From Antedon mediterranea (lineage: Eukaryota > Echinodermata > Crinoidea > Comatulida > Antedonidae), in the NCBI RefSeq assembly GCF_964355755.1, contig NC_092677.1, positions 26,320,101-26,384,100 of the forward strand: DNA of 64,000 nucleotides, in the 5' to 3' direction. A model generated the notes under the pieces. That model did no database searches and had not been told where the DNA came from. It saw nothing but the letters and a program-made list of their open reading frames with translations. Position 1 is the first letter of the stretch. Each line of letters opens with the position of its first letter. The translations under genes and the position numbers were made by a program. This document shows positions 7,752-63,498 of the stretch, in pieces.

Positions 7752-10349
7752 TCAAGAGATTATGCACCTACGGGAGGCTTCCCTTTCATGTATGTGGAAT
7801 TCTCCCTTCGAATCAACATAACCTGTAACTTCTTTTTGCTGATCTGTTTCTCCAGATGAAATATGAAATGAAGAATTACCCTGACCATAAAGAGATAGTT
7901 TTACGTTCTTGTAACTGGTTACTTTGTCAGCCTCCAACTTGGTCATGAACGCTTGTAGTAGTCTTCGTAGTCCAGCCTGTTCCGTTGTTTGTTCAGCGCC
8001 CTCATTTCCACAAAGTTTGAGTATGATGTTTGCAAGTGTACGTTTGTTTATCTCATCGACGCAAAACTGAAAGATTAAAACAAAATTTGATTTATTCAAC
8101 AATCATCAACATTGTTATATCATAGAACAAAAGATTACCGATATTATTTATGCAATAGCTTATGTTTTCTTTCAAATCATATTTGTTTCTGTTTTCTTTC
8201 TCTGAATTATTGTTTTTTTATGTAAATGTTTTGAAATGAAATAAATAAATCTGGAAAAAAAAGAAAGGTTTAAAGCAACATTAATAAATTATTTTAATGA
8301 CTGTGAAAATGATTGCTAACATCAGCCGTAGGTATAATAATCTCGGGTTGAAATAAATTGAAACCGTTTTAAAACCACAGATTTTAAATCCAGTTAATTC
8401 ATTTCAATGAACAATAGAAATTATCTTTCATTTGCTTAATAATCACATAAAATACATCGGGTGTCTATGATTAATTGCAACAAGTAATCATACTTTTTCG
8501 AACAGTCCTAATGTTGTAATGTAAACAAGTTTAAACGTACAAATCAGGTTCGATTGATTATTCTTATTTCTAGTACATTTTGTTCACCATGGGTGAAAAA
8601 ATGGAGAAAACACTGAACAATACCTTTAATTATTACAAATTGAATATATTATGAATAATATTTATTAAAGACCTACCATGACTTCTTCGCGGTGTTTATC
8701 ATTCTGGTGAACCATTACAGTATACTTGACATTCTTGCTGTTAAATGTAACTTGTTCTCCATTCAAGCCACAAAATATTAGCTTTAAGTTAGAAAACCCC
8801 TTTTCTCGAAACGAACTTGTGAAATATTTCCAATGAGATAGAAGCTTTGTCCAATATTGAACGTCTGGTTCAGAAGAACTGACACGTGCATCAACAGAAG
8901 TGAAGTCTTCAAAAACACGAGACATCCTTCCGTGACTTTCATCGTCTGCAAGACACGAACAATCTTGAAAGTCTACGATCAACTATAAAATACAATGTAT
9001 TTTAAAAAAAAAGTAGTAAATATCTCGTAGTAAAATGACTTAGTTATGCAAGTTTGTACGTCATCATGAGTAAAAGTGTATTACTTTTATATAAAATAAA
9101 AAAAGAGCATTACATTGGTATTTACTCTCCCTTTGTTTATCGTCACTTTCATCGTGTATTCGCCAACAGTCGCTTCACAGAATGCTGTTTCCGATTTAAT
9201 AGTACCGCGCGTCTCTCCTGTTTTTGTTTGAAGAAACTCGGCACACTTGCTGGCAAACTGACGTCGTGCATCGGTTGTTTTGTTTTTAAATAAATTGTTT
9301 AAAGCTGATTCAAGTTTGTTCTTACTAAACTCACTCATATCAATTTCCTGCAAAAATTAGACCTGTATTAGAAATTGGCGTCAATTGCAGGTGAAAGCAT
9401 AAATGAATGTTGTTAGGAATGCTGTAGTAGTAGATTGGCTTTCAGTTCCATAGCCGTTCCATGGAACGTCTGTACATTTAAAGCCCCATTCCCAACGTTT
9501 TTTATATCTATTTTAAGGTTACAAACTACATTTCATGTAAAAATAAATACTACATGGCCCTATTGAGATAACTTTTTTCGTCTTTAAATGGTTAAAAATG
9601 TGAAAAATAAGGAGATTCTCATAATTATAACGGCCCGCTATAAATCTTTTGGTAACATGTATTGGGCGCGGATTGATATTTTTGTTTTTCTTCTGTAATT
9701 CACCCACTTTTCGATCGATCGTGACGCCATAAACAATTAGAAGATTCCTAATCCTAACTTTTCAGCGAAAATACTGGAAAATACTCCCCCAATTGTTATC
9801 AACAGAGTCTGGCAAAACAGAAAGATAATCAATGCAGCAACTATACAACGTCAGGCTAGGCCTATAGCTAGCGTACGATGTTCGTACGTTACCGATGTTT
9901 ACCAGCTTGGCCTACAAAACTAAGCCTAGCTAGGTTAGGCCTAAAGACAGCCAGCGAGAGGACAATCACCACGAGCTACTTAGATAGTGTATTGTTTCTC
10001 TATGGCCTGGTTTAATGTTTTTAAAGTAATATATATGCATTACTTTTACAAAACGTCACAAATTGTAGGGAATGGGACTTCAAATTTATAAATCCAAATA
10101 TCATTTGACGTCGTATCCCCAATTAACAATTTAAGGATATCATAGATGAATATTATAATGTAAAAAATAAAATAATCTTCCGCTACAACATTAGAGCCAG
10201 TAGGCTAATATTACTACAATTAAAAATAGAATACCTATCCGTGTGAATATAAATAAAATAAATCTTACCGTTTCCTTAATTGATTCTGTCTTTCCAATCA
10301 GCAAAACAAACCACTCACAAAATTGTGAAAAAATTACTCCCATCAACAT
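7752..10349 (-). CDS. Family A gene A1: four-exon protein of unknown function with CaaX end (about 307 aa)
   Basis: I do not recognise the family. Exons, all joined in phase 0: 10349-10269 (27 codons; a second ATG at 10343), 9347-9126 (74), 8982-8677 (102), 8066-7752 (104 plus stop). Acceptors end TTTTTGCAG, TTTTATAG and ATCTTTCAG; donors are GTAAGA, GTAAAT (an alternative GTAATG lies 12 bases on) and GTAGGT. The same exon pattern recurs in A2 and A3. Exon 1 is short and aromatic (CEWFVLLIGKTES). Exons 2-4 each have a helix-rich half then predicted strands (NLKLIFCGLNGEQVTF in exon 3; NVKLSLYGQ and VDSKGEFHI in exon 4). The C-terminus RRCIIS is a canonical CaaX box, so prenylation and membrane attachment are likely. 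The promoter carries kappaB and CRE sites; a B remnant is divergently placed 387 bp away. Confidence 0.72.
9480..9715. repeat. Dispersed repeat copy (pair of 40801-41035), in A1 intron 1
   Basis: About 235 bp are colinear with 40801-41035, sharing ATAACTTTTTTCGTCTTTAA, ATGGTTAAAAATGTGAAAAA and TTTTTCTTCTGTAATTCACC. No coding content; an unclassified interspersed repeat. Confidence 0.7.
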
Positions 10350-10437
10350 AGATTGCCTGACCACAATTAAGAACAGACTCTCAGCGAAGACTGGTGTGTA
10401 CTAACAACATTTTTTTAGTTTCTATAGAGATATCCAT

Positions 10438-10474
10438 TGACGTCACTTCTTACAAAATATCCAATGGAAATTCC
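10438..10474 (-). promoter_or_regulatory. Composite CRE and kappaB sites upstream of A1
   Basis: TGACGTCA (10438-10445, CRE/ATF consensus) lies 20 bp from GGAAATTCC (10466-10474), which reads GGAATTTCC on the gene strand, a Rel/NF-kappaB 9-mer, flanked by CCAAT boxes. The same pair, order and spacing (21 bp) occurs upstream of A3 at 63605-63642. The CRE is about 90 bp and the kappaB site about 120 bp upstream of the A1 start codon. This suggests stress- or immune-inducible transcription. Confidence 0.6.
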
Positions 10475-13323: not shown

Positions 13324-13439
13324 ACACAGCAAAATTTGAAATTCTAAGCAAGAAAAAAAAATCTTGTTTTAAGAAAAAATTCTTAAAATAAGTATTTTTT
13401 TTCTTGTCAAGATTTAAAATTACTTAAAACAAGAAATAA

Positions 13440-24309: not shown

Positions 24310-24611
24310 TAAAATGTATATTAATATTAATATTAAAACAGGCTGTTCAAGAAGTGAACACATAATCATCCTCTTAAAATAACCTTAAAAATATCAATAT
24401 GATTGCTATTTAGATTATTAAATGTATATGGTAGTCTATGAAAAATTCCCCTTTTAGTACAGTCGACACGGCTAAAAGGAATATGCAATAAATGTCTATT
24501 TCGTGTACGACCAGGGATATTTAAACTAAATAGTGAAATTAATGAACAGTCATATTTAGAATTTAAAATATTATATAAAAAAACCATATCAGATATCGTT
24601 CGACGATTACT
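24310..24611 (-). pseudogene. 3' end of an older LINE, separated from its RT by a later insertion
   Basis: The minus strand reads SNRRTISDMVFLYNILNS, then TRNRHLLHIPFSRVD and RLPYTFNNL, typical of the region C-terminal to the reverse transcriptase in CR1/L2/jockey-type LINEs. It continues the frame of the RT fragment at 27653-28294. The two were split by the plus-strand LINE between the GACAG(G)AATC duplications. Confidence 0.75.
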
Positions 24612-28440: not shown

Positions 28441-29471
28441 AGCATTAGCAGTCCTAAAAAGAGCATAATAGCGGCGTTAAAGATGTATTGTCCCCCAAAA
28501 CATGAAAAATGAAGATTAATTAAATCAGACTTTGAATAGGTTATTTTGTAGTTTTAATAAAGTGAATCACTTCCGTAGAAAAAAAGGGAAACAATTATGT
28601 TTTCACTTATAAAATAACATGATAAATGGTTAAATTCAACCAAAAATCCATTGGCTGGCAGCCAATTTGACCATTTTTTTGCTTTGAATTCCAGTTTTTT
28701 CAGGTAAATAATTTTTTTTTCGATTCAATTTTTGGTCAAAGTCAATAACTATTATGTGACATTAAAATGGCATATTCAACAAAAAAAAATTGTCAAAAAT
28801 TATTTTTTTTAATACATTTTTAAAGCTTGAGCAAAACAAAAGATGTGCTAAAAAGGGGGAAGGTTATTTAAAGAGCTCATTATATGCTTAAATGTGCAAA
28901 ATTAGCTAAAGATATACATGTTATATTCTGCTTATTTATGTTTTTTATGCTTTAAACAATCCTTTTTTTTGCAAATTGATGTTTTACTTGGACCAATTCT
29001 TTGTTCGTTAGATGGTTTATTTATTTAAATAAATCAGCTGCAACAGACTTAAGTTTACTGGCACTGAATTCATATTCCTTTGGTTCCTATGACAAAATAC
29101 AATAAGGATAAGAGCGTAGGCCTATATTATGTCAAGAAACACATGTTTTTCTTTTTACCGAACAACATTAAGAAAATAAACCTAACAAACATTTAAACTA
29201 AAAAGATTTATTTCAATAAACAGCCAAAAAAAACCATGACAATTGTTGTGTGGTCTAGCTACATTAAGGGATAGTAAAAATGAAATAAACAATAATTACC
29301 TTTTGCATCGATTTCTGAGCCATTGTAGTAGAGCGTGAGATTATATAAATTGGGTGAAACCTACTACGTACCAATCAATCTATTTAATAGATTATTTATC
29401 GGTTATATGCGGACGTCGTCCAGAAAGTCCACTCAGTTTGTCGAATGACGTTACTTCACTCCCCACTTGTT
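28441..29471. other. AT-rich spacer with a dispersed repeat
   Basis: Bases about 28610-28800 share blocks with 45290-45430 (CCAATTTGAC, AATAACTATTAT, TGACATTAAAATGGCATAT), suggesting a non-coding interspersed repeat. No gene seen. Confidence 0.45.
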
Positions 29472-32305: not shown

Positions 32306-32668
32306 GTTTATTGTGGGACTGAAATCACTGTTGGTGACATAGCCGCTTTACACGGCAAAGAAGGCCTAGAAGCAGGATTTCTTGATAAGGCTAAGGAAAT
32401 GGTTTCGACAAGACCACAGTGGATTTTCAAAAATGCAGAAATTGCTATTGCATCAAATCCATCATACGTACTATACGCTGGCGACAGGTCTAATAAATTT
32501 GGAATTTACTGTACTGAAGGAATCTACAAATGGTCTACACGGAATAGAAGTTTGCGGTTATGGCTGGATGACCATATATGGACACCGGTGGTGGAAAATT
32601 ACATAGCGCGTGTGATAACCTATATTACCGGCAGCAATATTATGGCCGCTATTGGATGGTGGTGGTGA
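32306..32668 (+). CDS. Family B terminal exon B2: one module plus aromatic C-terminal tail (120 aa)
   Basis: Acceptor AAAACATAG then a phase-0 frame to TGA at 32666. Residues 1-75 follow the B module: VYCGTEITVGDIAAL, a second helix, PQWIFKNAEIAIAS, YVLYAGDRSNKFGIY. A tail of about 40 residues follows (LRLWLDDHIWTPVVENY, ITYITGSNIMAAIGWWW), amphipathic or hydrophobic and ending in three Trp. The last exon of B1 is built the same way and ends IQWW. Upstream exons are not found nearby, so it may be the surviving 3' end of a longer gene, or use a distant first exon. Function unknown; membrane association of the tail is inferred. Confidence 0.6.
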   Translation, partial: VYCGTEITVGDIAALHGKEGLEAGFLDKAKEMVSTRPQWIFKNAEIAIASNPSYVLYAGDRSNKFGIYCTEGIYKWSTRNRSLRLWLDDHIWTPVVENYIARVITYITGSNIMAAIGWWW

Positions 32669-34398: not shown

Positions 34399-34547
34399 TC
34401 AAGATATTATACATCTAGATGTATATCTTTCATGTATATGGAACTCTCCTTTCGAGTCAACATAACCTGTAACTTCTTTCAGGTGCTCCTTTTCTGATGA
34501 ATGAAATGTGAAACGAAGAATCACTCTGATCATAGAGAGAAAGCTTG

Positions 34548-37500: not shown

Positions 37501-37809
37501 TGTCAGAAATAGTATTTCCGCTCATTTTAGGGCAAAATGTTCCATTATAGTGAATAGAATTATGTACCTTACGAACATTTTAAGACTAAAACCAAGTCTC
37601 TACGATTAGTGGTTGCCGAGATATAAGTACTTGATAGCATAGACGGCCATTTTGAAAAAGCGCCCCCAGCGAATGAAAAACGCGTTTAGAATTTGGACAA
37701 CAAGTTGGAAGTTGTTTCTTGTGATGTCCTTGATCACTAAAAAGTGAAAAATCAAACTTGGCTAAATATATGAAGTAAAGTTAATATAGTGACAAATGCT
37801 GCCTGACTA
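34548..37809 (-). mobile_element. DNA transposon with long terminal inverted repeats
   Basis: The ends are TAGTCAGGCAGCATTTGT and its reverse complement. The inverted repeat is nearly identical over about 250 bp, apart from a short deletion near the left end, and fades over a further 100-150 bp (left 34548-34900, right 37450-37809). A 3-bp duplication TTG flanks it (34545-34547, 37810-37812). Removing the element and one TTG restores an alignment to the A2 exon at this place, so the boundaries are firm. It carries a broken minus-strand gene at 35194-36874. The superfamily is not assigned. Confidence 0.88.
35194..36874 (-). pseudogene. Transposon-encoded protein with PIN-like and Cys-rich CXC segments, frameshifted
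   Basis: Fragments in order from 36874: KEALDKFVTSRMIEKTVFWD; a frame change to RPEFALKDVIGNNYEFNSTP (36444-36758); LNLFGMSKPYDEVRLLFDQY (36389); EEGDQLVLLYAF and VDILSVDTDVFILL (about 36020-35920), which resemble a nuclease-like EADT/DTDV motif pair; IGWYAFKGTDNTGTFAGKG (35814), a HAFTGCDT-like motif; then RRCTCSGSCSTNRCSCKKNN and CTDACECGDGCEN, a tesmin/TSO1-like CXC zinc cluster near the C-terminus. At least three frame breaks show it is dead. This protein type is widespread in invertebrate genomes; its role here as the element's own protein is inferred from position. Confidence 0.7.
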
Positions 37810-38446
37810 TTGGTGTCAGTGTAACTTGTTACTTTATCAGTCTCTAACTTTGTCATGAACGCTTGTAGTAGTCTTCGTAGTCCAGCCTGTTCTTTCGTTT
37901 GTTCAGCGCCCTCATTTCCACAAAGTTTGAGTATGATATTTGCAAGTGTACGTTTGTTTATTTCATCGACGCAAAACTGAAAGATTACAATAATAATTAA
38001 ACTGATGAAAACAATTAGTAGTAGTTATGAATCATTTCAATGACTGTGACGTCACAGAAAGTCTTAGCCACATGCATCTATAATATTCATCTCGGATTGA
38101 TTAAATCCAGAAAATAAAATGTTCGTTGATAAAATAATTGTCACGGAGTAATATAAAATTACTTTATATCTCACTTTTGATTAATATAGACCTTTTCCAA
38201 AAGTTTTAAGTATAAAATTAAGGAACAAGAAATCGACTGATTAGTCTATTTAAGTTTATTTCAAAATAAACACTCTTTAAACTCCTGGCTGCTCTCCAGT
38301 GAAAAGAATTATCAAGACGTACAAATGATATTTATTTTATTTATTCACATAATATACCTACCATGACTTCTTCGCGGTGTTTATCATTCAGGTGAACCAT
38401 TACAGCAAACTTCTTCGCACAGCTGCTATTAAATGTAAATTGTCCC

Positions 38447-38588
38447 CCATAATAATTTATCGTGCTTATAAACTAAGTCTCATTTGAGAGAGTTGAAAGA
38501 GTCGTGAGTTACAACCCTGGCATTAGGTCAGGATTGAACCACGGAATTTGGCACGTTAACCACCAAGCTACAGCTCCACTACATTATG
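38447..38588 (-). mobile_element. tRNA-derived SINE copy
   Basis: On the minus strand, box A TAGCTTGGTGG (38561-38571) and box B GGTTCAATCC (38531-38540) are followed by CCAGGGTTGTAACTC, CTTTCAACTC, AAATGAGA and GCACGAT, colinear with the plus-strand copy at 6322-6486. It sits exactly where A4 exon 3 breaks off. Confidence 0.75.
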
Positions 38589-43504: not shown

Positions 43505-46367
43505 TCAGAAAATTGTACATTGAATAGAGGGTTTCTTTTCAGGTATGTGAAATTCTCCCTTCGAGTCAACATAACCTGTAACTTCTTTCGGGTTGTCTTT
43601 GTTTCCAGCTAATATATAAAATGCTGAATCACTCTGACCATAAAGAGACAGCTTGACGTCAGTGAAACTGGTTACTTTATCAGCCTCCAACTTGGTCATG
43701 AACGCTTGTAGTAGTCTTCGTAGTCCAGCCTGTTCTTTTGTTTGTTCAGCGCCCTCATTTCCACAAAGTTTGAGTATGATATTTGCCAGTGTACGTTTGT
43801 TTATCTCATCCACTAGAAACTGTAAAAATTATGTAAATGTTTACTGATACAATGAATACCTCACTAAGCAGTACATTTTTAAGTTGAGAAATTCTGTATA
43901 ATCATTATCCAGACTATTTGGAATGTACCCTATCTAGGGTTACCAGTATATGAAATGGTCATTTTACAAGTTCAACGGGTAAATTAATTGGTTTATATTG
44001 TGTTGGTTTTCACTTTGTACCAGTGGCACTAGTAATGCCAACACTGTTCTAAGTGGGTGCTAAGTTACTATGCTTCCCAGTCAAAATAGACTGCTACTGC
44101 CAGAAGGGTGTAACAATAATATATACGAAAGACCTACCAATACTTCTTCATTCTTTTGAACCATTATAGTGATCTTGACACGATTGCTTTTGAATGTAAC
44201 TTGTTCTCCATTTAACCCACAAAATATTAGCTTTATATCTGAAAACCCCTTTTGTCGAAACGAACTTGTGAACTTTTTCCAGTATGATAGAAGATTTGTC
44301 CATTCTTCAGAAGGACTGTCACATGGGTCAACCAACGCATCAAAAACACGAGACATACATGTGTGACTTTCTTCGTCGGCGAAAGTGGAACAATTTGGAA
44401 GATCTACAATCAACTATAAAAACATAATTTATGTCAAATGTATGTAAGAAAGAGGACGTATAAATGTTTTGGAAACAATTAGGGCAGATCAATAAAAAGT
44501 AACATTAGTTATTCTGGTTAACTAAAACAAATAAAAATTAATGGGCCTAAAAACAATTATTATCTTATTATAAACAAAAATGATTTTATTACATTAGTTG
44601 TTACTCTTTCTTTGCATGGTATCTTTACCATCAGCGTGTACTCGGCAACAGTTGCTTCACAGAAACTGGTACTCCATCGAATCGTACCAACGCTCGTCTG
44701 TACATTTTTTGTTTCCAGAAAATCTGCGCATTTGTTTGCAAATTGACGTTTTGTTTGGATTGTTTTGTCGTTCTTTCGATAGTTTATTTGTTTAAATAAA
44801 CTACTATGAACATTTTTAAGTTGTCTTATACTGAATTCACTCTCGTTGGATTTCTGTAGAAAAGACATAATGAAGTGTTTACCTAGTACTCGACTACTGT
44901 AATCCTGAACATGTTCTAAACCATAAACTTAATTTTTATTCAAACCTCGTCTCTGGCGCACATCACGCTTAGATCACACCGGTGTAGGCCTATTATTTTC
45001 TGATCTAACAGTGCAAATTGTGTTCGGTGGCAGATGGGAGAATCACTACCAAAAAGGGACAAATTGCCTTCGAACTTTTCTAGACCAGAAATCGATCATG
45101 GTAGGAACCGTTTTCAAGATAAGTTATTACTATAGCAGGGTATATATTACCAACAACATTTTGCTACTTTGAAAGAAAAAAGAACTACATTTTGAATTTT
45201 CTTTTAGAACATGCATATCAACACACAGATAAAAAATGTTTGCCATGAAGCAATGAAGTTTAAACAAAACCGAAAAACCCCACAAAATAAACGGTAAACA
45301 AGCCAATTTGACTATGTTTTGCTTTATATTACAGTTTGTTAGGTAGGCCTAAATATCTACTTTTTTGTATCAAAGTGAGTAATAACTATTATATGACATT
45401 AAAATGGCATATTTAACAAAATATTTGAAACAACATTTTTTTAGGACAATATCTTTAAACAAAACCCAACATTATGGCCTATAAACTAATAAATAGGCTA
45501 TGACTGTATCGTTTATTGTATTCGTTGATGTCAACTGTTATAAGTAAATGAAAACAAGTCAGTGAATCAGTTTATTCAACGTCTATATTTTTTTAATGAT
45601 ATTTCTCTTCTGGATGAATAAAAAAAATGAAATTAAATGATTATTATTAAAGATTACTACAATTTTATAATAATAATGAATTTAAAGCGTCCGTTAATAC
45701 TATTTAAATGCCTATACCATTATCAGATAATCTTCCACCTTATAAGCTGAAGTATTAATTCAACTGTGGACCTTGCTCTTTCACCGTGTTAAGAAAACAA
45801 CATCAGAGCTGGCGACGCAATAATGATTAATGAATCAATGGTGGCAATCACATTGGACTTTAATCCAAATATAGTAGGCCACACTGTCCATACAAAAATG
45901 TTTACAATTAATTGAGTAAATTTGTAACGCAGGCCTATTATCTCATAACTGTATATTTTTGCCGTTGTGACAATACAGTTTTATCGTATCGTATTGTATA
46001 TTATTTTTAATTTATTTTGCAGGGTACAATATATCTTTAATTAATAATCTTCTGTAATTATAGAAACTGAACAGCATATGTAACCTAAACCTTTGTCAGT
46101 TGGCCTAGATTGGCATACGACTGGGCAAAAAAAACACCCGTTATGATAACGATTCTTACTGAAATCTAAGTATTCAAACATTCTACCATCAACCATACAT
46201 AACAATACCTTTCTTTATGATATTAATAATGTAACCTACAATTAAAAACAAAAATATTGATATCGATATAAACTGATAACAATTAAATAGCGTAAACAAT
46301 TTACCGTCTTGTCAGCAACTAATTCGGTCTTGTGTCCAAAAAAACGCTGTTTAAGATTACTTGCCAT
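43505..46367 (-). CDS. Family A gene A2: four-exon protein of unknown function with CaaX end (about 300 aa)
   Basis: Exons, all phase 0: 46367-46305 (21 codons, MASNLKQRFFGHKTELVADK), 44853-44605 (83), 44413-44138 (92), 43819-43505 (104 plus stop). Donors ACG|GTAAAT, AGA|GTAACA and TTG|GTAGGT; acceptors TTTCTACAG, TTTTTATAG and TTTTTACAG. Exon sizes and joints match A1 and A3. Signature strands: AEYTLMVKI (exon 2), DIKLIFCGLNGEQVTF (exon 3), DVKLSLYGQSDSAFYI and VDSKGEFHI (exon 4). The C-terminus IQCTIF is a CaaX box whose final Phe suits geranylgeranylation, unlike the CIIS of A1 and A3. No stop or frameshift in any exon. The promoter pair seen in A1 and A3 is not obvious here. B1 starts divergently about 3.3 kb away. 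Function unknown. Confidence 0.72.
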
Positions 46368-47212: not shown

Positions 47213-49196
47213 TGTATTAGTAGAGTTGTTCTTGGTATATCCAGATATATATGGTTCGTCTAACAATCCCCAAAAGGATGCCTACAAATCGGAAAAATAT
47301 TTAATGGCGCCATTTAGGCAACGCCCGTTATGTCGTATCGAGAGATCTTCTGATTTATTGGTTCCGGATTGGTTATTTTTAATCACATGACTAATATTCA
47401 ACGTTTTCTTGACGCACACATCACCGAAATCAATGTACCAAAGAACTCTATATTATACCAAGCAACAACTCTGCTAATACAAGTAAGTAACTTGGCGTAG
47501 ACTGTCATACATTTAACAAGTTTTTCTAGTCTTATATGATATGTTTTGATTTGTAAACACTTTTAAATACATTCGACTAGCGTAGGATAAAGGCCCATAA
47601 TAGGCCCTATTTAATAGGCCACCAGGCAGAGAAGTACCTTTGCGATATTTTCGGCCAGAGACGTTTCGTAGGTACGGTCGGGTATGTGTTTTTTGCAATG
47701 TCATATACATTCGTGTGTCTTAATAAACAAACTAGATTTGAACTCGTCACTACGGACGAGTTAGGTTATCCGCAGCGCAAATGCCACTGCACGTCATACG
47801 TTAGAATATTGCGCAAAGAAAAACGATTATGCCATTGAAACAATTTCAGTGTGCTCTCTATTTTGTTTCACGTCTAAGTATATACAGTACTATATACTGT
47901 ATACGTACTACAGACAGTGCAGAATAGGTGAAAATAAGTGACCAAAGTTATTGACGCTTTTGCACATGATGACGTCTAAAATGGTGAATCATGCGAAACC
48001 TAGACAATATAAAAAAATGGAGGGCAATGGAATACGGATAAGTGGAGATGCGCTCTATTAAATGTGACGAGCTATGATGAAAGAGACAAAAATCCTATAT
48101 TTTATATTCGAGTGGCCATACGATGACGTCACAATGTCCAGTTAGCCATATTGATGCATGATTCGATATTTACAGCTCATCTACTTTCAGAATATGTAAT
48201 TTAAAAAAAGTTCACCACATAGTTTATAATCTATGACTGTTTAAAGAAAGGCATAATTTTCACAAATTGTTGAACTTTTTCATAAAAAACGCACGGAAAT
48301 TGTTCAATTCTACGTGCTCGTATGACGTGATTTTAAGTCGAAATTGTTTGAAAGTTGGTAAAATTACTAGAAAAGGCTGAAAAAACAAAAATCACGCAAA
48401 AATATATGTTTTTTCGCTACATGCGCACGCGCGCGTAAACAATTGGAATGCTCAAAATTTTCGAAATGCTCAAAATGACATGAAACGCGTATGAAATTGA
48501 TTAGAAGTTGATTTTTCGCATTCTGAAATTTTAAACGCGCGTGCGCGCGTAATTTTCGTTAACATTTTTAATCCATAAAAAGTTTCCCCTTTATATGACT
48601 TGAATTTTCACCAAGTGTCAATACAAAATGACTTTTGGTTTTCAATCTATGATCAATCATTGAAATTCATAAAATCGCGCGTAACTTACGCTGCGCAACT
48701 CGAACGGGACCGAAAACCTTATTACGTCATCTTCAGATAGAGGTCAATCTTATGACAAAGTTATACATCTTATGTTGTCCAGAATTAGAGATATGCGTGC
48801 AACAAAATTCGTGGAAAGAAAGAAGAATATAGAAAAAAAAATATTACGTACAGTTAGTCTGTAATAGGTCATTTAGTATTGCTTACAATGTGCTAAATCA
48901 TATTACATTGGTTGCTGGTGGTATCTACAATATCTAAGCTGGGCTAGTTGGGGGAAGGGGGGTCTCTAGTCAAACTATAGGGTGTCTGGCACTTGCGGTG
49001 CAGCAGACAATTAGTCTGTTGTTATCCATTTAGTATTGTATGAACACAACTTGTTCATTTGGCATTAATTTTGAGTGCATCTATGCTAACCCCTTTTTAG
49101 GCCCTCCCTGGGGGGGGGGGGGGGTCTGGCGTGCCCTTTGCAGCAGAGAAAAAGTCTGTCGTTTGTGATACTGGTATAAGGATGTCAATGGGCATC
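47213..49196. other. Spacer between A2 and B1 with a CG-rich dispersed repeat
   Basis: Bases about 48240-48830 have CGCGCG-rich blocks (GCGCACGCGCGCGTAAAC, ACGCGCGTGCGCGCGTAA, TCGCGCGTAACTTACGCTGC) and end GTGGAAAGAAAGAAGAATAT. This looks like a member of a high-copy interspersed family. I see no gene. Confidence 0.4.
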
Positions 49197-49659: not shown

Positions 49660-52600
49660 ATGCCAAAGGTAAACTTAATATCATAATTATTTTATCTAAC
49701 ATTGTCATTGTCAAGCTTATTACAGGCCATGTTAACTTCGTTTATTTTCTAAAATCAATGAAAATTTCATCTACTTTAAATTGTATATTATAATTACATA
49801 TTTAAAATATAAATCCAATATTCTTAATAAAAGTTAATGTGGATTTCGAAAACATTATTAAAAAACAACATCTACTGTTCTAGAACATAATATAACAAAT
49901 TATTTTTAAAAAGTATATTTATATATATATATATTTATATAAATCCAAAGGCAAATTACTGAAAAAAATGACAATGCTGTGGGTATCAGTGGCTGGATCT
50001 CAATGGAGATACAAAAATAAAAAGCGAAAAGCTAAATCAAAACGATAAAGTAAAGTAAACAGCCAGAAAAGTTAGCAGAGCTTTCGGGCAACACTAGCCC
50101 TTCATCAGTGCAAGTGAAGGAATTTGGATAACGTCATAGTATAAAGCTGGCAAGTGCTGCCTGGGTGGACAGGAATAAAAGAAATATAACAAAGGGAGCC
50201 AGGGTGGAGTCTGAATAAGAGTAGAAAACAAAGAAGATATATTTATATATATATATATTTATATATTTAATTTGAAACGATAAAGATGAGGAAATCTGTG
50301 AGAATGAGAAAAAGTCGCCCCAACCGAGACTCGAACTCGGACCGCCTGCTTGATATGCAGATGTCCTAACCATTAGACCACTGGGGCTTTCATGGTATTG
50401 TTCGAACTCGATTGGTTAACGACTCTTTAACATTCTCGGCGTGGTACGGCGGAACAGCACTAGTCCTCAGTTGTACGCACGCGCAACAGAGATCAAATTG
50501 ATACGCCCTCATCTTTCAGCGGTTTAGAATTAGTGTTCTTTGCCTATTGTGTTTATATATTTATATATTTATATATATTTATATATATTTATTGACTTAT
50601 ATTCAAAGCCTTTTGGATGTCATTAACCATACAATTTAATAAATAAACTGAATGCTTATGGAATAACAGGTACTCTTTAAATTAGGCTTTTGACCATCTT
50701 GACAGAAAACAAAATATCCCTTTGCAGACTTAACTCAAAGCCTCTAAGCATTGGGTTATTATTTCTAATTTATATTTATTACGCCGACTACAACTACATT
50801 ATTTCTCTTCAATCCTATATTAATACTCTATTTTAATAATTTTATTATTAAAAAAATAAGGAATTAAAAAAAAAACTTTATTTCAAATAAATTACTTGCA
50901 AACATTAAAAAAACAAATAGAAAAAAAAACTGAAAATGATGATCATAAATTATTATTTATTTTTTTAAGAAAATTGTAGTAACGAAAACGATATAAGCCT
51001 ATTGTCCCACTGAAAATATTTTCAAACATTTTCTGTTGAATATGCCATTATGCATATTTGAAAATAAAAATTATTTCCTGACAAAATTTTAATAAAACTT
51101 AATAATTAAAAATTTTAATTAAAAAGCAAAAAAATTACCTAAACAATGGTTTTTGGTTAACATTAACCGTTTCTTTTGCCTTTTTATAAGTAGGCCTAGA
51201 GTAATTATTTTTTTGGTTTTTATTTCCTACATAATTTTATAATTTGATTAAAACTGCAAAATAATAACCAACATTTTTATCAAGAAAACTATCACAATCT
51301 TATAGGAATTATCAACAAAATGAAACATTCCTACAAAATGTCACTTATAACATATTTACAATATGGCAATATCATATGGGCTGCTGACTATCCATATCCA
51401 AGCTTAATAATTTTACAAAAAGAACACTTACCATTTTAAAGAAAGAGGAAAAGTGTTAATAGCGACTATTGTCAACACGTAATACGGCTATTTACATTCG
51501 ACTATAGTTGTTTTTTCATTGCTTAGCCTTAATTATTTATGTTCAATTATTATTACATGATTATTAGGCTAGTGTAATACAATCCATAATTGATGTTTAT
51601 ATTACATTGTGTTAACACAGATTGATTGTGGGAGTGAGATTACGCTTGACGATGTTCACATGTTAAAATCTAAAATAAATGATACAGATTTTCTTAATGC
51701 TACTAACATACTGATTTGCGAGACACCACAGTGGGTTCTTAGAAATGCAGAGATTCATATAGCTTTTGATCCACCATACTCATTGTGCGCAGGGAACATG
51801 GATAATAAATTGTCATTGTATAGATGTAAAGATGGATCAATTAAGACAAACAGCACAGGAAACAAGGTAATCAGGGGTTTTGTTTTAATTACAACTTTAA
51901 AGTGTACAAGATAAAATCATACAGTAGGCCTCCTTTACTTATACCATAACGATGCACATTGTTTAATGTAGGTAGTTGACTGTGGAAGTAAGATTACACT
52001 TCCACATCTTCAAAGTTTAACATCTGCTACACATATTGAGGATAAAGATTTGTTTGCTGCTACCAGAAGACTGATCTGCGAGACACCAACGTCGGTTCTT
52101 AAGAATGCAAAAATTGAAATACCGACTGATGATTCAACATACTCACTGTATGCAGGGAAGAAGACTCATGAATTTGTAGTGTTTAGAGAAGAAGATGGGT
52201 CAATTAAAACTAAAAAGAAGGCAATAAACAAAGTAATAAGATGTTTGGCTTTATTTACCGGAATGACATATAATCTTACTATTGGTGGTCACGACTTAAA
52301 GTTGTCCGCAACTTATTTTGACCTCCATCTGCACATTTTTGATGTTTTTATGTTTTATTGTAATTTTTAAGTTATGTTTCTATCTTTTTTGCAATTTGTA
52401 ATTTTTATCTTTTATTTTAAAATGTGTGGATAAACCAATAAAGCAAACAAACAAACTATTTTATTATACTACAATAACCGATGTACGGTACTTAAAGAGT
52501 ATTGTTTTAACACAGGTACAGGAAATTCATTGTGGAACCGAGATTACACTTGGAGATGTTCAAAGTTTATACTTGGAAACAAATGATACTAATGAGGGTT

Positions 52601-55600
52601 TTATTCGAGTTACACAAAAACTGGTCTTCAAAGCACCAGCGTGGATTCGTAAAGATGCAAACATTGAACTAGCATCTGATCCACCATACTCATTGTATGC
52701 AGGGAACAAGGCTCATACATTTAAAGTGTATAGAGGGGAAGATGGGTCAATTAAGATAATGAAGAAGGCGATACCGAAGGTACGTAATCAGGTCTTTTGC
52801 TATATATATTTATATATTTATTGCCTTTCCGCTGAAAAGTCTGCCGATATTTCCGCTTGGGCTGCTCCGTAAATCTCTTTTACCAGTTTCTTCCAGTCTG
52901 ATCTTTCATTGGCTAGTTCTTTAAGTTGTTTCATGTCTTTCTTAGTTTTCAATTGTCCGGGATACTTAATGTCTGTGTTATGCTTATAAAGGATGAGTAG
53001 GGCGTTGCTGAGAGTTATTGGTAGGGTGGGTCTCGGTCTTCCTCGAAATTTTATATTGGTAGTGTTGCTGAAATAATAGCTTATTGCTGTGTCGGCTGGT
53101 GTACATGGGTCTTGTCTAAGTATGTGACCCAATAGTCTCCATCTTGCGTCGACTATTTCTAATGAAATCGGTTTTGTTCCTGTCCTTCTGTATAAATTTA
53201 TGTTCGATATCCTGTCTGGGAACCTGATACCTATGATTTTACGAGTCCCCATGTTTCAGAGTTGTAGAGTAATATACTTTTAACAAGTGAGTTGTACAGC
53301 TTGATACGTATTTTTAATTTGATTTTTCGAAGCCACATCGAGTTTAGTTTGGTCATTGCTACACGCGCTAGTTGTGTTCTTCTAATTATGTCTTGTCTGT
53401 CCCCAAGGAGCGATCCTACTTTTTTTCGTGTTTCTCCATTGTTCTTGTATGTCCTCTTTTTCTCGTCTTACAATAGTGTGTTCTGTTTTTTCTTTATTTA
53501 CATTTAAGTTGAAAGTTGATAGATGGCGTTCAAATTCGTTTACATTATGCTTGCTGTTTAGATTCTACATCATCAGCATATGATATCTCTTGATGTATTT
53601 CTGGATAATTGTTCTGATTCCTCGTAGCGCAGACTCAAGGTAAACAGTGAATAAGACCGGGCTTAAGCTATCTCCTTGAGGGGTGCCGATGTTGGTTTGG
53701 AATATTGGCTGTTCTTTTGCCCCTTTTATTTTTAGATTTAGTCCGGTTTCACTCAGCAGAAATCTAACGATCCTAAGTTCATCTTCGTCTATAATTGAGT
53801 ATGTCGAGGAGTTTGTTTCTATCCACGGTGTCAAACGCGCTTGACATATCTATACCGGTTATGTAAATATTTATTTTGTTCTTTTTGTGCTTTAGCTATA
53901 AGCCATCTATGTGTAAAAACAATATTACTTGTGCTTCTGCCTTTGCGAAACCCACTTTGGCTTTGTGGTAAGAATGCGTCTACTTTCGATGTAATTCTAT
54001 CCAGTGTTATAAGCGATAGGCACTTGCGTATGGTGTTAAGTAGAATAACAGGTTGTAAATTCTTAGTTGGACCCTTTTCCTTACCCGGTTTTGGTAGTGC
54101 TATGAGTGTTCCTTTATTAATATCCACGAATTCATGTTTTGTAAATATTTGATTTAAAATGTCTGAAATCATTGGAGCTAGAACAGCGGAACCGTATTTT
54201 AGTAGTTCTCCTGGGATACCATCCTCACCTGCTGCTCGACTGTTGTTTAGGCGTTTAAGATTCTTGGTTACTTCCTCTTCACTGATTTCACTATGGGAGT
54301 CCCGATGGGAGTGGATTTTATATTGGTAGGAAATGGGTTCCGAGTATACACAAAGTATGGAAATGTTCCGAAAGAATATCGGTATTACAACTAACCACGA
54401 AAGAAAGTTAATAACTTTGATCAACGTTTTTGCGCCGAATACATACATAGCAAACACGAAACCAGACGAAATAAACAAACTATATACCGACCTAGAAGGC
54501 CTTCTCAAGCGATACGGTAACAAAACATTACTTATTTTGCGGTGATTTTAATTCTTCGGTAGGAAAAAAACGGGATGACGAGAGGTGTATGGGATCATTT
54601 TCTATGAAAAACATAGATTTCTGTGAAAAACACAATTTATTCATAAATAAAAGCGCGTTTCAGCATTCAGCACACGTCATATAACTACATGGTCCCAACA
54701 GAGAAGAAACTCCAAAGGAGAACTGATCAAACTGTACACTCAAATAGACTATAATGTTATATGTAAAAGTAGATACAAGACTCTCCTAAAGAACGCTAGG
54801 TCATACAACGGAACACTTTTAGATAGTGATCACAGAATAGTAATCACAATATTCAACTTAAAATGGCATCGCGTCAACAAACAAAACACTAACAAAAACA
54901 TTAACTTATTTGCATGTGAAAAGCTAGTGACAAGCGAAGAAACTAGAAATTTATACGTAGAAAAACTGAAAGAATGCATAGATGTTGTTGTGAAACCGGA
55001 TCAGCCAGCCGTTACATGGCAGAAATTGAAAAGCGTCGTGAAGGCAGCTGCAAAACATACAATAGGACCAAAACAAAAGGTCGGCTACAACAAAAGGACA
55101 TACGACGACACTTGAACTCAACGCCTATCAACGCACCAAAAAGAACTTAGACAACAAAAAGCTAACTGCAAGTCGGAAATCGAACGTACATCATTAGTCT
55201 AGTGGGCTCCAGACGTTGTTTTTTCTTAATATTAGTAAAAATATAAATATTTTTGCACATATGGCGTTTCATACGTGTATTACTTGAGTTTGGATACTCC
55301 GCCTGGGGAAACACGCACAAGTCACGTGGTTTGACACCAAGAATTCGTGGTGCATACGATTATCCGGTTGACTAGTTTCAGCTGCATGCGATTGGCTACT
55401 CACTCGTACACCGTTTTAATATTCATGTTTCAGAATTTCAAAGACTCAACAACTAAGAAGGTACGCATGCGCTATGTTACGTTTAGAAAATGTGTACTTG
55501 GGAACATTAATGAAAGTTTCTGAAGGCTAGAAATGATTTTATATTACCGTATGCCTAGTAGTAGTCTGGTAAACATTTGATGGGATTTTTCCCATGAAAA

Positions 55601-57581
55601 CTCGTCTTGCTTCTCCGCAAATCAAACATTGAATGGATCATTTAATATTACGCGGAGATAATTTGATTTAATTCCCACCCAGACCCTGTTCTGTGTAGTG
55701 GTGTAGCCCTGTCTGCCTGCCGGTGGTGGTATGTAGGCCTACCTTATTGGCGCGCGTTTTATTTGGCAGGTCATACGTGCGAATTGAGTAGGACCTACGA
55801 AGGAGGCCTAGGCTAAGGACTAAACAATTAATAGACAAAACAACTTGGCAACACGATTTCATATTTCAACAGTCTCGATCGTACATTCAGCACTGTACGT
55901 ACTCGATCTTTTTCATTTGAAACAAAATGATTATTGGTTGATTCGAAATCCATATTTACATACCATATAGCCAAATACGGTATGATAACCTACGTCATTT
56001 ATCGGATGTTTGCGGTCTGCAAATCGATTTCTATACGTGTTTCACAAGTCTGTATTTTCAGACAAAAATCGGAGTCGAAATATAAACAAATAAATAAAAA
56101 TAAAAAACAATACAGACTTGGGGCAAGCTTAGTACATCATTAAAGCAAAAAAGAAACAAAATCATGCATGATATTAAAAAAAAAAGTAATTGAAACATGC
56201 AACAAAGAACTTGATCAGAAAAGTTTGGATATCGACAAAGCGATAAGGGGCGCCCAAATGTTTAAAGCAGTGAAAGATCTTAATAGAAAACCATTCGAAA
56301 ATCCAAAAGTGTTTGATGCTAACAAAAAGTTTATTGCCTCACCAAATGGAATAGCGAAAGTAATTGGCAATCACTTCGAAAACAAATTTTACGACGGAAG
56401 CAAACGAAATATAGATTCATTTTAGGGAAATCCTAGGCCATTAAATAAAGAAATCAGTGAAGAGGAAGTAACCAAGTGTCTTTTGCTATATTTGACTTTA
56501 AAGTATTGGAATTTATAACATAGATTTAAATTTGTATCCGTGTTTGTCGACAGGACCACAATGTAAAACAGGTATATTTCTACTTGATTGTGTATAATCC
56601 TGTATAAATATGTTGTTAAATAAAAAATAAATAATTAAAAAACATAAAACACACATTATTTGTATATACTATACTAACATAATGACACAAATTGTTTTAA
56701 TTCAGAAAGTTAACTGTGGAAGTGAGATTACACTTAAAGATGTTCAAGATTTACAATTTGAAACAAATGACGATGATAAAGATTTCTTAGATGCTGCTAA
56801 AAGACTGGTCTGCGAGACACCAGCGGGGGTTCTTAAAGATGCAGAAATTGAAATACCGACTTATTATTCAACATACTCCCTGTATGCAGGAAACAAGACT
56901 AATAAATTTGTAGTGTTTAGAGAAGAAGATGGGTCAATTAAGATTAACAAGAGAACAGGAAAAAAGGTAATCAGGTATTTTGTTTTATAGCATGGCAGAA
57001 TGTTAACTAAAATGTCCATCGTCATCAACTGTGAATGAATATGGTTTAATAATACATTGTTTGTTTTAATCAATTAAATTAAATGAATTGATATTGTTGT
57101 TTCACCATCCTATCGATAAAATATAAAAATATGAAGTATATATAATATCACAACTTGTATACTACCATAATCGAGTACATAAACAGTAATTATGATTTTA
57201 AAACAGGGGCCGGTCAAGATTGATTGTGGAAGTGTGATTACACTTAAGGATGTTCAACAATTAAACGCTAAAATAAATGACGATGAGAAAGATTTCGTTG
57301 ATGCTACAAAAAGACTGATTTGCGAGACAGAAAATTGGGTTCTGAGAGATGCGGAAATTGAAATAACGACTAAGGATCATAGTATATACAAATTGTATGC
57401 AGGGAACAAGACTAATAGGTTTGCAGTGTTTAGAGACGAAAATGGGTCAATTAAGACCTCACAAAAGGAACGGAGTTGGTGGAAGTTGATTTATGACGGG
57501 TGTCGTTGGGTTAGAGATAAGATCACCCCGCTTGCACAGCTGCTTAGTGATACTACTAGATTAGCTATCCAGTGGTGGTAG
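49660..57581 (+). CDS. Family B gene B1: five tandem exon-encoded modules and aromatic tail (about 471 aa)
   Basis: Unrecognised family. Exons, all phase 0: 49660-49668 (M-P-K, donor GTAAAC, least certain), 51621-51866 (82 codons), 51972-52232 (87), 52516-52779 (88), 56706-56966 (87), 57207-57581 (124 plus stop). Each large exon is one module: IDCGSEITL, helix, second helix ending RLICETP, WVLRDAEIEI, YSLYAGNKTNKFVVFR, EDGSIKT. The last exon adds a tail of about 38 residues (SWWKLIYDGCRWVRDK ... TTRLAIQWW). The terminal KK/GNKK before each donor is also conserved. A 3.7-kb LINE sits in the intron after exon 4 without touching splice sites. The modules resemble the A exons in layout. Divergent from A2. 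Predicted intracellular (no signal peptide seen); function unknown. Confidence 0.65.
49960..50130 (+). repeat. Dispersed repeat copy (retroelement tail; pair of 62085-62215 minus)
   Basis: It shares TCAATGGAGATACAAA, AAAAGCTAAA, CAAAACGATAAAGT, CAGCCAGAA and CCCTTCATCAGTG with the reverse complement of 62085-62215. The segment AGAGCTTTCGGGCAACACTA with CCCTTCATCAGTG is typical of Penelope/DIRS-like element ends in marine invertebrates (from family knowledge). Confidence 0.55.
50316..50387 (-). tRNA. tRNA-like gene, full cloverleaf, anticodon AUC
   Basis: 72 nt. Acceptor GCCCCAG pairs with TTGGGGC (one G-T), D-stem GTC/GAC with loop TAATGGTTAG, anticodon stem TCTGC/GCAGG with loop ATATCAA, T-arm CCGAG-TTCGAGT-CTCGG, discriminator G. 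The anticodon by position is AUC, which would read GAU (Asp), but eukaryotic Asp tRNA normally has GUC. No intron. The D-arm is more like Glu or Gln tRNA. Either a tRNA pseudogene or the head of a tRNA-derived repeat. It lies in intron 1 of B1, antisense. Confidence 0.5.
50525..51600. other. AT-rich intronic DNA of B1
   Basis: ATATTTATAT repeats at about 50556-50597, and long A/T runs at 50850-51130. No exon seen before the acceptor at 51620. Confidence 0.4.
52792..52805. repeat. Target-site duplication of the LINE, left copy
   Basis: GTCTTTTGCTATAT, repeated exactly at 56478-56491. These are the only two places where the flanking intron sequence is duplicated. Confidence 0.85.
52806..56477 (-). 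mobile_element. LINE with 5' inversion (twin-priming type), decayed
   Basis: The 3' half is on the minus strand: RT pieces 54300-53831 (EISEEEVTKNLKRLNNS, AAGEDGIPGELLKYGS, PQSQSGFRKGRSTSN), 53834-53565 (GTPQGDSLSPVLFTVYLES) and the C-terminus 53252-52818 (DARWRLLGHILRQDP). The 5' half is inverted on the plus strand: endonuclease 54333-55115 (ITLINVFAPN, GDFNSS at 54541, DSDHRIV at about 54825) and linker 56168-56477 ending EISEEEVTK. A 27-bp sequence encoding that motif occurs at both the inner minus edge and the outer plus edge. A 14-bp duplication flanks the whole, so it is one insertion. Several frameshifts; not active. Confidence 0.88.
55197..56131. mobile_element. 935-bp insertion inside the LINE, with 11-bp duplication
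   Basis: It is flanked by GTACATCATTA at 55186-55196 and 56132-56142. Removing it rejoins the LINE linker coding sequence. It has no recognised ORF or inverted ends; the right part is A-rich (AAATAAATAAAAATAAAAAA). An unclassified, possibly SINE-like element. Confidence 0.6.
56478..56491. repeat. Target-site duplication of the LINE, right copy
   Basis: Identical to 52792-52805. Confidence 0.85.
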
Positions 57582-60766: not shown

Positions 60767-61040
60767 TATAACAACATATGAATTGGTTTCTAAACATTTT
60801 CTTGACTTCATGCTATGGTGAAAGAGCAAGGTCCGTTAGACAAATTATTAGGTCTAATCAACAATTATTCATAATTATTACAATTACTGACATTTTAACA
60901 GCTGTTTTCAAGGAATGTAGTTAATGACTCGTGTATTTCTTAGTTAAATAAACACTGAAAGGATTATAAACATGGATCTCAGAATTATAGTGACGCAGAA
61001 CATAATTCAACAGTTAATGTATCTTTTGTATTGGGCCGGT

Positions 61041-63498
61041 TTAAGATATTATACATCTAGATGTATATCTTTCATGTATATGGAACTCTCCCTTCGAGTC
61101 CACATAACCTGTAACCTCTTTCTCCTGATCTGTTTCTCCAGATGAAATGTGAAATGAAGAATTACCCTGACCGTAAAGAGATAGTTTTACGTTCTTGTAA
61201 CTGGTTGCTTTATCAGTCTCTAACTTGGTCATGAACGCTTGTAGTAGTCTTCGTAGTCCAGTCTGTTCTTTCGTTTGTTGAGCGCCCTCATTTCCACAAA
61301 GTTTGAGTATGATATTTGCAAGTGTACGTTTGTTTATTTCATCGACTATAAACTGATAAAAACAATTAGTAGTAGTTATGAATCATTTCAATGACTGTGA
61401 CGTCACAGAAAGTCTTAGCCACATGCATCTATAATATTCATCTCGGATTGATATTACTTTTTTAAATCCAGAAAATTAAATGTTCGTTGATAAAATAATT
61501 GTCACGGAGTAATATAAAATTACTTTATGTCTCACTTTTGATTAATATAGACTTTTTCCAAAAGTCTTAAGTTTAAAATTAAGGAACAAGAAATCGACTG
61601 ATTAGTCTACTTAAGTTTATTTCAAAATAAACACTCTTTAAACGCCTGGCTGCTCTCCAGTGAAAAGAATTATCAAAACGTACAAATGATATTTATTTTA
61701 TTTATTCACATAATATACCTACCATGACTTCTTCGCGGTGTTTATCATTCAGGTGAACCATTACAGCAAACTTCTTCGCACAGCTGCTATTAAATGTAAC
61801 TTGTTCTCCATTCAAGCCACAAAATATTAGCTTTATGTTAGAAAAACCTTTTTCTCGAAACGAACTTGTGAAATCTTTCCAGTAGGATAGATGATTGGTC
61901 CAATCTTGAACTGGTAGGTTTAATGTCTCAAAGTCGATTTCAGTAGGCCTGTCACGTAGGTCAACAGAAGATAAGTCTTCAAAAACACGAGACATACATC
62001 TGTGACTTTCTTCGTTGGCAAGACAAGAACAATCTGGAAGGTCCACAATCAACTATAAAATACAATGTATATCAATTCAGAGAAACACTGATGAAGGGTT
62101 AGTGCAATTTTTCGTTCTGGCTGTTTCACTTTATCGTTTTGGTTTAGCTTTTTGCATATTTTATTTGTATCTCCATTGAGGTTCAAACACATTTTTTCAG
62201 TAATATGTCTTTTGAATTTAATTCAGAGAAAAACATTTTAATATGTCATATGAAAAATGATCAATGTGATTAAAGTTAACTTTTAGTAGGCTTTGTATTC
62301 AACCTAACTATTATCAATGTCATGAAAAATAGTAGGCCTAGTAATGTACTTATTAAATAATAAGTTCTTATAAGCCTTTTATATCGGTAAAATATAAGAT
62401 TTGACAACCTCTTGAGAATGATATTATGTTCTCGAGAAATATATTTCCTCGAACAAAATATCATTCCCTCGGGGATGTCAAAACTTATATTTACCCTCTA
62501 AGCAGTCAATATCTGTATAATAATGTACTGTATAAGAAGTATATTACATTGGTATTTACTATCCATGTGTTTATCGTCACCTCCAACGTGTACTCGGCAA
62601 CAGTAGCTTCACAACAACGGGGAGGCCTACTCCATTGAATGGTACCAACGCTCGTCTTTCCATGACTTTTTGTTGCAAGAAAATCTGCGCATGCGTTTGC
62701 AAATTGACGTTGTGTTTGTATGGCTTCATTATTCGTTTGAACGTTTGTTTGTTGAAATATATCATCTACAACAGATTTCAGTTTCTTGATACTGAATTCA
62801 TTTTTTTGCTGGGAGAAAAGATGAATCGAATTTCATTACGCCTGAATGAACATTCTATATACATTTTTACATACATCTTTACATACATTGATAAAAACTC
62901 ATACGTTATAGTGTAGAAACTAACACAAATTAGTATGTATTATACATACATTAATGAAACAGAATGTCGCAGTTTATAGTGAATTTATAGTAGATACCGT
63001 ATATGCCCAGCATTTTATTCAGTCTCTGGAAAAAACCGCTGACAAAAATATATAGCCATTATTATTATTGGGCCACCGGTACGTAAATTATGTTTTTTAC
63101 CGAAGACCGGTTTTACCGAAGAAATATGATTATTTTTATAGACTAAATACTTTATTATTGTTGAAATAAACATCCTACTACTTAAATCTCAATCTACCTA
63201 TAAGCTCCATAAATATCTAACAGTATAGCCTAATAAACAATTCATTTAAAAATGCTCATCTACCGATTTGAAACAGGAACCACACTAGCTATATATATCA
63301 CACTGAATGAGTACTGTATTGATATTACCAGTACATGGACGTGACACATGGGCCGTTCGGACAGATTACCGGCTAAGTTCCGGCCGTTCCTATCCACTAA
63401 AGTTAGCCTAATGAAAGTGAGTAAATTATGAATAGGCCTACCATTGATTCGGTGTCTCCCGTGGAAATCCACCACTGACAAACATTTGCTGCCATCAT
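61041..63498 (-). CDS. Family A gene A3: four-exon protein of unknown function with CaaX end (about 315 aa)
   Basis: Exons, all phase 0: 63498-63442 (19 codons, MMAANVCQWWISTGDTESM, donor ATG|GTAGGC), 62808-62560 (83; acceptor TCTCCCAG, donor ATA|GTAAAT), 62052-61723 (110; acceptor TTTTATAG, donor ATG|GTAGGT), 61352-61041 (103 plus stop; acceptor TTTTATCAG). Exon 1 aligns with A1 exon 1 through C-Q/E-W-W/F and G-K/D-TES. Later exons carry AEYTLEVTI, NIKLIFCGLNGEQVTF, NVKLSLYGQ and VDSKGEFHI. The C-terminus SRCIIS is a CaaX box, so lipid anchoring is likely. Exon 3 has about 8 extra residues relative to A1. Parent-like relative of pseudogene A4. kappaB and CRE sites lie about 110-145 bp upstream. 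No disabling change seen. Confidence 0.72.
62085..62215 (-). repeat. Dispersed repeat copy in A3 intron 2 (pair of 49960-50130)
   Basis: Reverse-complement relative of 49960-50130; see there. Confidence 0.55.

Follow-up and report, generated by a model that had tools for sequence, protein, structure and literature searches.

A tandem cluster of divergent gene pairs from two unrecognised families in a crinoid genome, possibly inducible and membrane-associated, with one fast-changing partner

We analysed a stretch of 64,000 nucleotides (the window) of the genome of the crinoid Antedon mediterranea (354 Mb, 18 contigs), C8:26320101-26384100, where C8 is contig NC_092677.1, and found that it holds members of two gene families, A and B. 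Window coordinates are C8 coordinates minus 26320100; positions in Mb, in kb of the form 26xxx or with eight digits refer to C8 unless marked otherwise. The six-frame comparison of the window with itself returned both families; the other matches listed were tandem repeats, retroelement frames and, at 0-6 kb, NHL-type genes. Neither family is a product of chance, as the best non-self matches have E values of 4.7e-54 (a B module) and 6.5e-70 (A exon 2). The window contains four A genes (A1-A4), an extra A fragment and three B genes (Table 1); further A genes follow as A5 (26387 kb), A6 (26430 kb) and A7 (26464 kb). The initial annotation, made from the letters of this DNA, had proposed four CaaX-ended A copies on the minus strand, all of which were recovered, and at least four B loci, a count that falls to three because the module tree joins the halves at 51.6-52.8 and 56.7-57.6 kb.

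Family A genes have three matched exons on the minus strand, with conserved splice signals and phase 0 at both intervening introns, verified at the inspected exon borders of A1 (7.76-9.35 kb), A3 (43.5-44.9 kb) and A4 (61.0-62.8 kb). In family B, on the plus strand, exons of 82-88 codons carry one module apiece in phase 0, and the last exon adds a tail; splice signals and phase were verified in the B exons at 51.6-57.6 kb. Both families encode one alpha/beta module of about 75-110 amino acids per phase-0 exon. The first exon of A was not located and A4 exon 1 as modelled has no in-frame start; homologues of A1 exon 1 are present in six other A genes. A2 (34.4-38.5 kb, minus strand) has its exon 3 interrupted by a stretch of 3.2 kb, and its exon 1 was not found, nor any of its exon 2 except the end. 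Within the interrupting stretch, a minus-strand frame of 212 amino acids (window 35194-35832) has a Cys-rich end, CXC-like by eye, and gave no Pfam match at E 0.001. The extra A fragment matches other A exon 1 regions at 75-79% in DNA.

The B loci of the window are a gene of one module and tail at 32.3 kb, a broken copy at 40.4 kb and one five-module gene at 49.66-57.58 kb; the next B gene has its first coding exon at C8:26384190. A compact five-module gene, C8:26416604-26418737, was used for comparison, and because modules 1, 2, 3 and 5 of the two halves group by position with those of the compact gene, we read the halves as a single gene interrupted by an insertion in the intron that separates modules 3 and 4. 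The RVT_1 match of the reverse-transcriptase-like frame in that intron (20.6 bits) is below the curated cut-off of 29.6, and the spacing of modules 3 and 4 is alike in the near-identical copy at C8:26396-26402 kb. The putative start exon shows an 82% DNA match over 74 nucleotides to the equivalent site (MPKE) upstream of two other B genes, and on this conservation we propose that three B genes, two of which are near-identical copies, begin with a very short coding exon (MPK or MPKE). The annotation was right that some copies are broken, as the two in-frame stops of the 40.4 kb B copy and the inverted-repeat-bounded stretch in A2 confirm. Outside the window, the B module at 26427290 has an in-frame stop, the 26426 kb B gene has a stop and a small deletion within module 2, and the A exon 3 at 26468695 has one stop in frame.

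Genome searches, in which all match counts are lower bounds, placed both families in a single cluster of about 160 kb on C8 and one pair on C9. A B-module query matched at least 28 places, 27 of them on C8 (26.352-26.485 Mb) and one on C9, and the divergent C9 module, used as query in turn, gave at least 27 matches and no new locus. For A, exon 3 gave at least 13 matches (12 on C8, one on C9), exon 2 at least nine (seven on C8), exon 1 at least seven (six on C8) and a divergent exon-2 query at least seven, every one on C8. Counted by locus, there are 12 B loci on C8 and one on C9. All A genes and remnants found on C8 are on the minus strand, and 11 of the 12 C8 B loci are on the plus strand, the sole minus-strand locus (26439150-26439521) being broken.

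At 10 of the 13 B loci (9/12 on C8, 1/1 on C9), the first family member met upstream is an A gene or remnant in divergent, minus-strand orientation, and only the loci at 26416, 26426 and 26439 kb are outside this head-to-head pattern. The C9 pair has its A exons at C9:8805180-8809189 (minus) and its B at C9:8820072 (plus). The two families, annotated as interleaved, are both present as described and are better viewed as tandemly repeated divergent A/B units. The proposal that A and B work together gains support from this pairing, which recurs at the separate C9 locus, although the control sites described below are found in only two of the ten pairs.

A tree of 27 modules, with the broken minus-strand B at C8:26439 kb left out, grouped modules 1, 2 and 3 each by position across the genes at 26371, 26395, 26416 and 26426 kb with starred support, and module 5 across those at 26371, 26395 and 26416 kb, also starred; module 4 was placed with no group. 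The grouping by position suggests that the multi-module B gene was duplicated whole. The unit at 26363-26377 kb was recently copied at 26387-26402 kb (98.2% over 1077 nucleotides upstream of B; synonymous divergence, dS, of 0.02 between A3 and A5), and the units at 26381 and 26430 kb are close as well (94.3% over 2785 nucleotides). Duplication with decay, as annotated, therefore holds by sequence, given these recent unit copies and the broken ones.

Upstream of A1, A4 and A6, and at no other pair, a cyclic AMP response element (CRE, TGACGTCAC) is accompanied by a kappaB-type site (GGAAATTCC), which follows it by 28-29 nucleotides. The arrangement TGACGTCAC-N15-35-GGAAATTCC is rare, with these three occurrences in the 354 Mb genome, all upstream of A, and the reversed-pattern control returned 0 and 0 in the whole genome. 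When the gap was widened to 60-90, 68 genome matches were obtained, 67 of which are by eye one dispersed repeat and one of which is not (C11:17688796), and the reversed control gave two, which puts the background free of the repeat at about 1 to 2. By eye, the A1 and A4 flanks align poorly except at the two sites. The annotated kappaB and CRE sites in two A promoters were thus located, upstream of A1 and A4, and the promoters do look inducible in sequence terms, but the combination is limited to A1 and to two pairs that are themselves duplicates. In the bases scanned, TGACGTCAC lies in the A-B intergenic region of A3, A4 and A6 and in the A1 upstream region, and further in A introns and at 26440901. 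Because this lone-CRE scan left out 26389629-26394488 (the A5 pair), 26482348-26483111 and C9:8818059-8818571, a lone CRE would be missed at these three intergenic stretches; the joint pattern was searched genome-wide. The word TGACGTCA was found seven times in the window (0.59 expected), three of them upstream of A genes. Dispersed repeats elsewhere in the genome, e.g. at C1:2796120 and C1:157195, also bear TGACGTCA words, and one of them GGAAATTCC; repeats are thus one route by which such sites can spread. CREB/ATF or Rel factors may bind the predicted sites, and the intergenic region would then regulate both genes in response to a CREB/ATF- plus NF-kappaB-type signal.

A CaaX motif (CIIS, CTIF or CLIS) ends 10 of the 11 C8 frames that reach the end of A exon 3, in agreement with the membrane targeting predicted earlier; the exception is an exon-3 fragment beside A7 (C8:26462799-26463065) that also reaches the exon end. 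The motif is kept in the copies at 26468, 26476 and 26480 kb although exon 3 there is only 51-55% identical to that of A1. A is probably anchored to membranes by a prenyl group at this predicted prenylation site. The single C9 A copy (C9:8805111-8805467) has no CaaX and runs on to ..SNWSKLIQWAQDIILTSNQR, a Trp-containing tail whose likeness, by eye, to the beginning of the B tails could indicate that A and B have a common ancestor. Among the ten B tails aligned, a Trp close to the start is conserved in at least 90%, recurring in 9/10, and Ala-Ile near the end is seen by eye in nine. The helical moment is clearly above shuffles only in the 26371 and 26395 kb tails (9 and 7 of 500 shuffles reach it), and some other tails have hydrophobic stretches. 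The aromatic, partly hydrophobic B tail probably touches membranes, so that both proteins would be located there.

The families appear to be new, judged against Pfam, NCBIfam and PDB for the exons tested and a narrow literature search, rather than against animal proteomes. Pfam gave no match at curated cut-off for nine window A/B frames and seven further sequences, NCBIfam (a prokaryote library) none for four sequences, and PDB, searched by sequence up to E 10, none for the B module, the B profile, A exon 2 or A exon 1; the literature search returned nothing on either family by title. The absence of curated or significant matches agrees with the annotation of both families as unrecognised, and since no catalogue entry was found, annotation by known domains would leave these genes unnamed. 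Two candidate relatives were set aside: chlorite dismutase (PDB), which aligned with the profile of A exon 3 over 34 positions at E 0.65 and 0.75 and was judged a chance match, and viral relatives of the B module (best BFVD match E 0.087, none under 0.001).

AlphaFold models, which cover the B module and A exon 3 (pLDDT, the model confidence score, 68.5 for the latter), have the order strand-helix-helix-four strands in both. Profile comparisons from shallow alignments gave E 0.18 for B against A exon 2, 0.25 against exon 1, and 0.012 between A exons 2 and 3. The A and B modules are probably of common origin, as judged from the modelled element order and the plan of one phase-0 exon per module, though sequence comparison falls short of demonstrating this. 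The modelled fold bears a weak resemblance to REDD1/DDIT4 (RTP801_C, PF07809), and the modules could be divergent repeats of that fold in stress regulators that damp mTOR signalling at membranes. No sequence relation was detected: PF07809 gave no row for the nine window frames or for seven proteins (E up to 10, HMMER filters on), and the genome's sole clear DDIT4/REDD1 match is at C6:27592548-27592871 (RTP801_C, E 3.4e-30). Three module exons make up A and one to five make up B, and the description of REDD1 consulted speaks of neither the CaaX end seen in A nor the aromatic tail seen in B. We consider REDD1-like regulators distinctly improbable.

The ratio of nonsynonymous to synonymous change (dN/dS) was calculated for the seven A genes with all three exons, fragments being left out, and was 0.24-0.51 across 21 pairs of concatenated exons, so A is clearly under constraint. 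Two further A genes were used for exon 3 only, and dS was saturated in 13 of 14 of their comparisons with others. In multi-module B, 13 per-module comparisons (26371, 26416 and 26426 kb) gave dN/dS 0.60-1.76, with nine above 1. The 26371 and 26416 kb genes differ at 187 positions over 422 aligned codons (65/60/62 by codon position), and B exon divergence (0.14-0.21) is near that of introns (0.16 and 0.24). The ten modules of these two genes contain no stop, where about ten would be expected if unconstrained (187 random changes at 5.4% nonsense under an assumed mutation model; Poisson P about 4e-5). These data fit multi-module B genes whose frames are maintained while replacement is rapid.

Ordinary duplication within the lineage, with B under relaxed constraint, promoter motifs that are an inherited coincidence and no special joint function of the genes, would account for the many broken copies, the recent copy of the A3/B unit (98.2% over the 1077-nucleotide flank), the pooled B dN/dS close to 1 and the presence of the motif pair in few pairs. 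It leaves unexplained the missing stops in the two five-module genes, the clear constraint on A, a motif pair kept between promoters that otherwise align poorly, and pairing on C9 too; we regard it as unlikely. Rapid change of multi-module B is compatible with conflict between host and pathogen, and also with relaxed constraint or with a role that is selfish, reproductive or in self-recognition. If these were reproductive or allorecognition genes, with B diversifying between individuals, tandem copies and rapid replacement in multi-module B would be natural; yet the CaaX end of A points to the cell interior, and B has no visible signal peptide, since its proposed MPK[E] start leads straight into the modules, and we find this explanation improbable. 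A selfish pair, with B, whose tail would be membrane-active, as poison and prenylated A as antidote, spreading by duplication and decaying on losing drive, would suit the tight divergent linkage, the decaying tandem copies of orphan proteins, the constrained partner beside a fast one and the hydrophobic stretches in some B tails. However, the B genes at 26416 and 26426 kb have no adjoining intact A and the one at 32.3 kb has an A fragment only (an unlinked A could serve), the helical moment is unremarkable in 10 of 12 B tails, and to our knowledge a CRE and kappaB arrangement is unexpected for such pairs, which counts against this alternative and makes it very improbable.

Table 1. Features of the two families, and sites associated with them, in window coordinates
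Feature	Position	Strand	Basis
A1 exon 3 (module 3), CaaX end CIIS	7755..8066	-	frame, genome matches, AlphaFold model
A1 exon 2 (module 2)	8677..8982	-	frame, splice motifs, genome matches
A1 exon 1 (module 1), cag acceptor before, gt donor after, phase 0 end	9114..9347	-	open reading frame 9090-9356, splice motifs
CRE TGACGTCAC and kappaB-type site GGAAATTCC upstream of A1, 28 nt start to start	10438..10474	.	
A exon-1 fragment, broken, divergent neighbour of 32.3 kb B gene	28955..29086	-	profile E 0.0016, 0.0028
B gene, single module and aromatic/hydrophobic tail (ends AAIGWWW)	32306..32668	+	
A2 exon 3, second part, CaaX end CIIS	34399..34567	-	
3.2 kb stretch inside A2 exon 3, flanked by 458-nt 84% inverted repeats	34568..37779	.	
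A2 exon 3, first part, cut by inserted stretch	37780..37976	-	
A2 exon 2 remnant (exon end)	38344..38472	-	
Broken B module, in-frame TGA and TAA	40403..40670	+	
A3 exon 3, CaaX CTIF	43505..43819	-	homology, splice motifs
A3 exon 2	44138..44413	-	homology, splice motifs
A3 exon 1	44593..44853	-	homology, splice motifs
CRE TGACGTCAC between A3 and divergent B, no kappaB site beside	48124..48132	.	
Five-module B, proposed first coding exon: ATG CCA AAG (MPK), then GT donor	49660..49668	+	
Five-module B, module 1	51621..51866	+	splice motifs, profile, tree
Five-module B, module 2	51972..52232	+	splice motifs, profile, tree
Five-module B, module 3	52516..52779	+	splice motifs, profile, tree
Reverse-transcriptase-like frame, intron between modules 3 and 4	53831..54547	-	RVT_1 E 3.9e-4
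Five-module B, module 4	56706..56966	+	genome match, tree
Five-module B, module 5 and aromatic tail	57207..57581	+	tree, AlphaFold model; tail part pLDDT under 50
A4 exon 3, CaaX CIIS	61041..61352	-	homology, splice motifs
A4 exon 2	61723..62052	-	homology, splice motifs
A4 exon 1	62548..62808	-	homology, splice motifs
CRE and kappaB-type site between A4 and divergent B starting just outside window	63605..63642	.	

Beside the cluster, window 1-5933 (minus) holds three related frames, 50-69% alike; the two that were scanned are TRIM-like, one with RING and NHL and the other with NHL, both with a sub-threshold Filamin match. A non-LTR (long terminal repeat) retroelement frame of 980 amino acids, open and with endonuclease and reverse-transcriptase matches, is present at window 24579-27521 (plus). 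The AT-rich stretches at 13387-14913 and 18218-19606, where frames recur every 102 and 128 nucleotides and several frames are open, were read as repeats and not as genes.

Our best reading is a gene pair specific to its lineage, membrane-associated and possibly inducible, in which B evolves fast. To the fuller statement, that the locus is a tandem cluster of a divergent A/B unit whose products act jointly and inducibly at membranes with B as the fast partner, we give a probability of roughly 40%. In such a system A would be a protein of at least three modules, prenyl-anchored at the membrane through its CaaX end, and B, encoded head to head with it, a protein of one to five modules that starts with MPK(E) and ends in an aromatic, membrane-touching tail. 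Stress or infection would switch both on together, A serving as the conserved membrane-bound partner and the modules of multi-module B as the variable surface that contacts a foreign or rival protein which itself evolves fast. A and B may also be physical partners; an immune role is plausible and unproven.

Several observations weigh against this reading. No A partner accompanies the B genes at 26416 and 26426 kb. The CRE and kappaB-type sites stand between A and B in only 2/10 pairs (A4 and A6), and since A4 and A6 are recent duplicates the arrangement represents two lineages at most; the A3 pair has the CRE alone, the A7 and C9 pairs have partial sites only, and no TGACGTCA was seen in the bases scanned at the 26476 and 26480 kb pairs. 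Of the seven window TGACGTCA words, the other four belong to A introns, A3 exon 3 and a neighbouring gene; GGRAWTYCC by itself shows no enrichment in the window (3 found, 0.99 expected; 9/100 shuffles reach 3). A clear amphipathic helix in the B tails was rejected, being seen in 2/12 only, which are near-identical copies, and the profile comparison of B with A exon 3, though in register, is not significant (E 0.066). A exon 1 alone is looser than the whole gene (dN/dS 0.35-1.01 among pairs with enough change, 1.01 being one pair). Positive selection proper in multi-module B found no significant support (pooled dN/dS 1.14, 1.18 and 1.32; P 0.57, 0.53 and 0.35), and its replacements are spread over the module and therefore define no binding face. 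Fast change is not a property of all B genes, since two single-module B pairs gave dN/dS of 0.40 and 0.46. Finally, none of the diagnostic immune domains (TLR, NLR, TRIM, GBP and others) was detected in the Pfam and NCBIfam scans.

A bolder version of the joint-action reading, rather doubtful in our view, is that of an undescribed two-component system of animals: a CRE/kappaB-controlled pair built from a new alpha/beta module, with a conserved prenylated subunit that acts at membranes with a quickly diversifying, multi-module partner, duplicating in conflict with pathogens or rival copies. Should the role prove to be selfish or reproductive, the pair, an orphan unit that duplicates and joins a constrained member to a fast one, would still be a good test case for the origin and decay of linked pairs.

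Three known systems resemble the A/B cluster in part. Guanylate-binding proteins are interferon-induced, partly CaaX-prenylated and tandemly duplicated, and are alike in layout only (a tandem, decaying family, CaaX ends and inducible-type promoter sites), their GTPase domain not being found in A or B, which have no curated Pfam match. The interferon-beta enhancer combines ATF/CRE and NF-kappaB sites, as the A/B region places a CRE beside a kappaB-type site within about 30 nucleotides; the region shows these two sites only, with predicted function. Paired plant NLR genes, with their head-to-head partners, differ in that the A/B exons scanned have no NLR-type domain and the genome is that of an animal, and are alike in that divergent partners have stayed together as they duplicated. 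If A and B are indeed co-induced and B is fast, they would represent a new kind of paired animal effector, comparable in layout to the paired plant receptors and with a defined control element to test.

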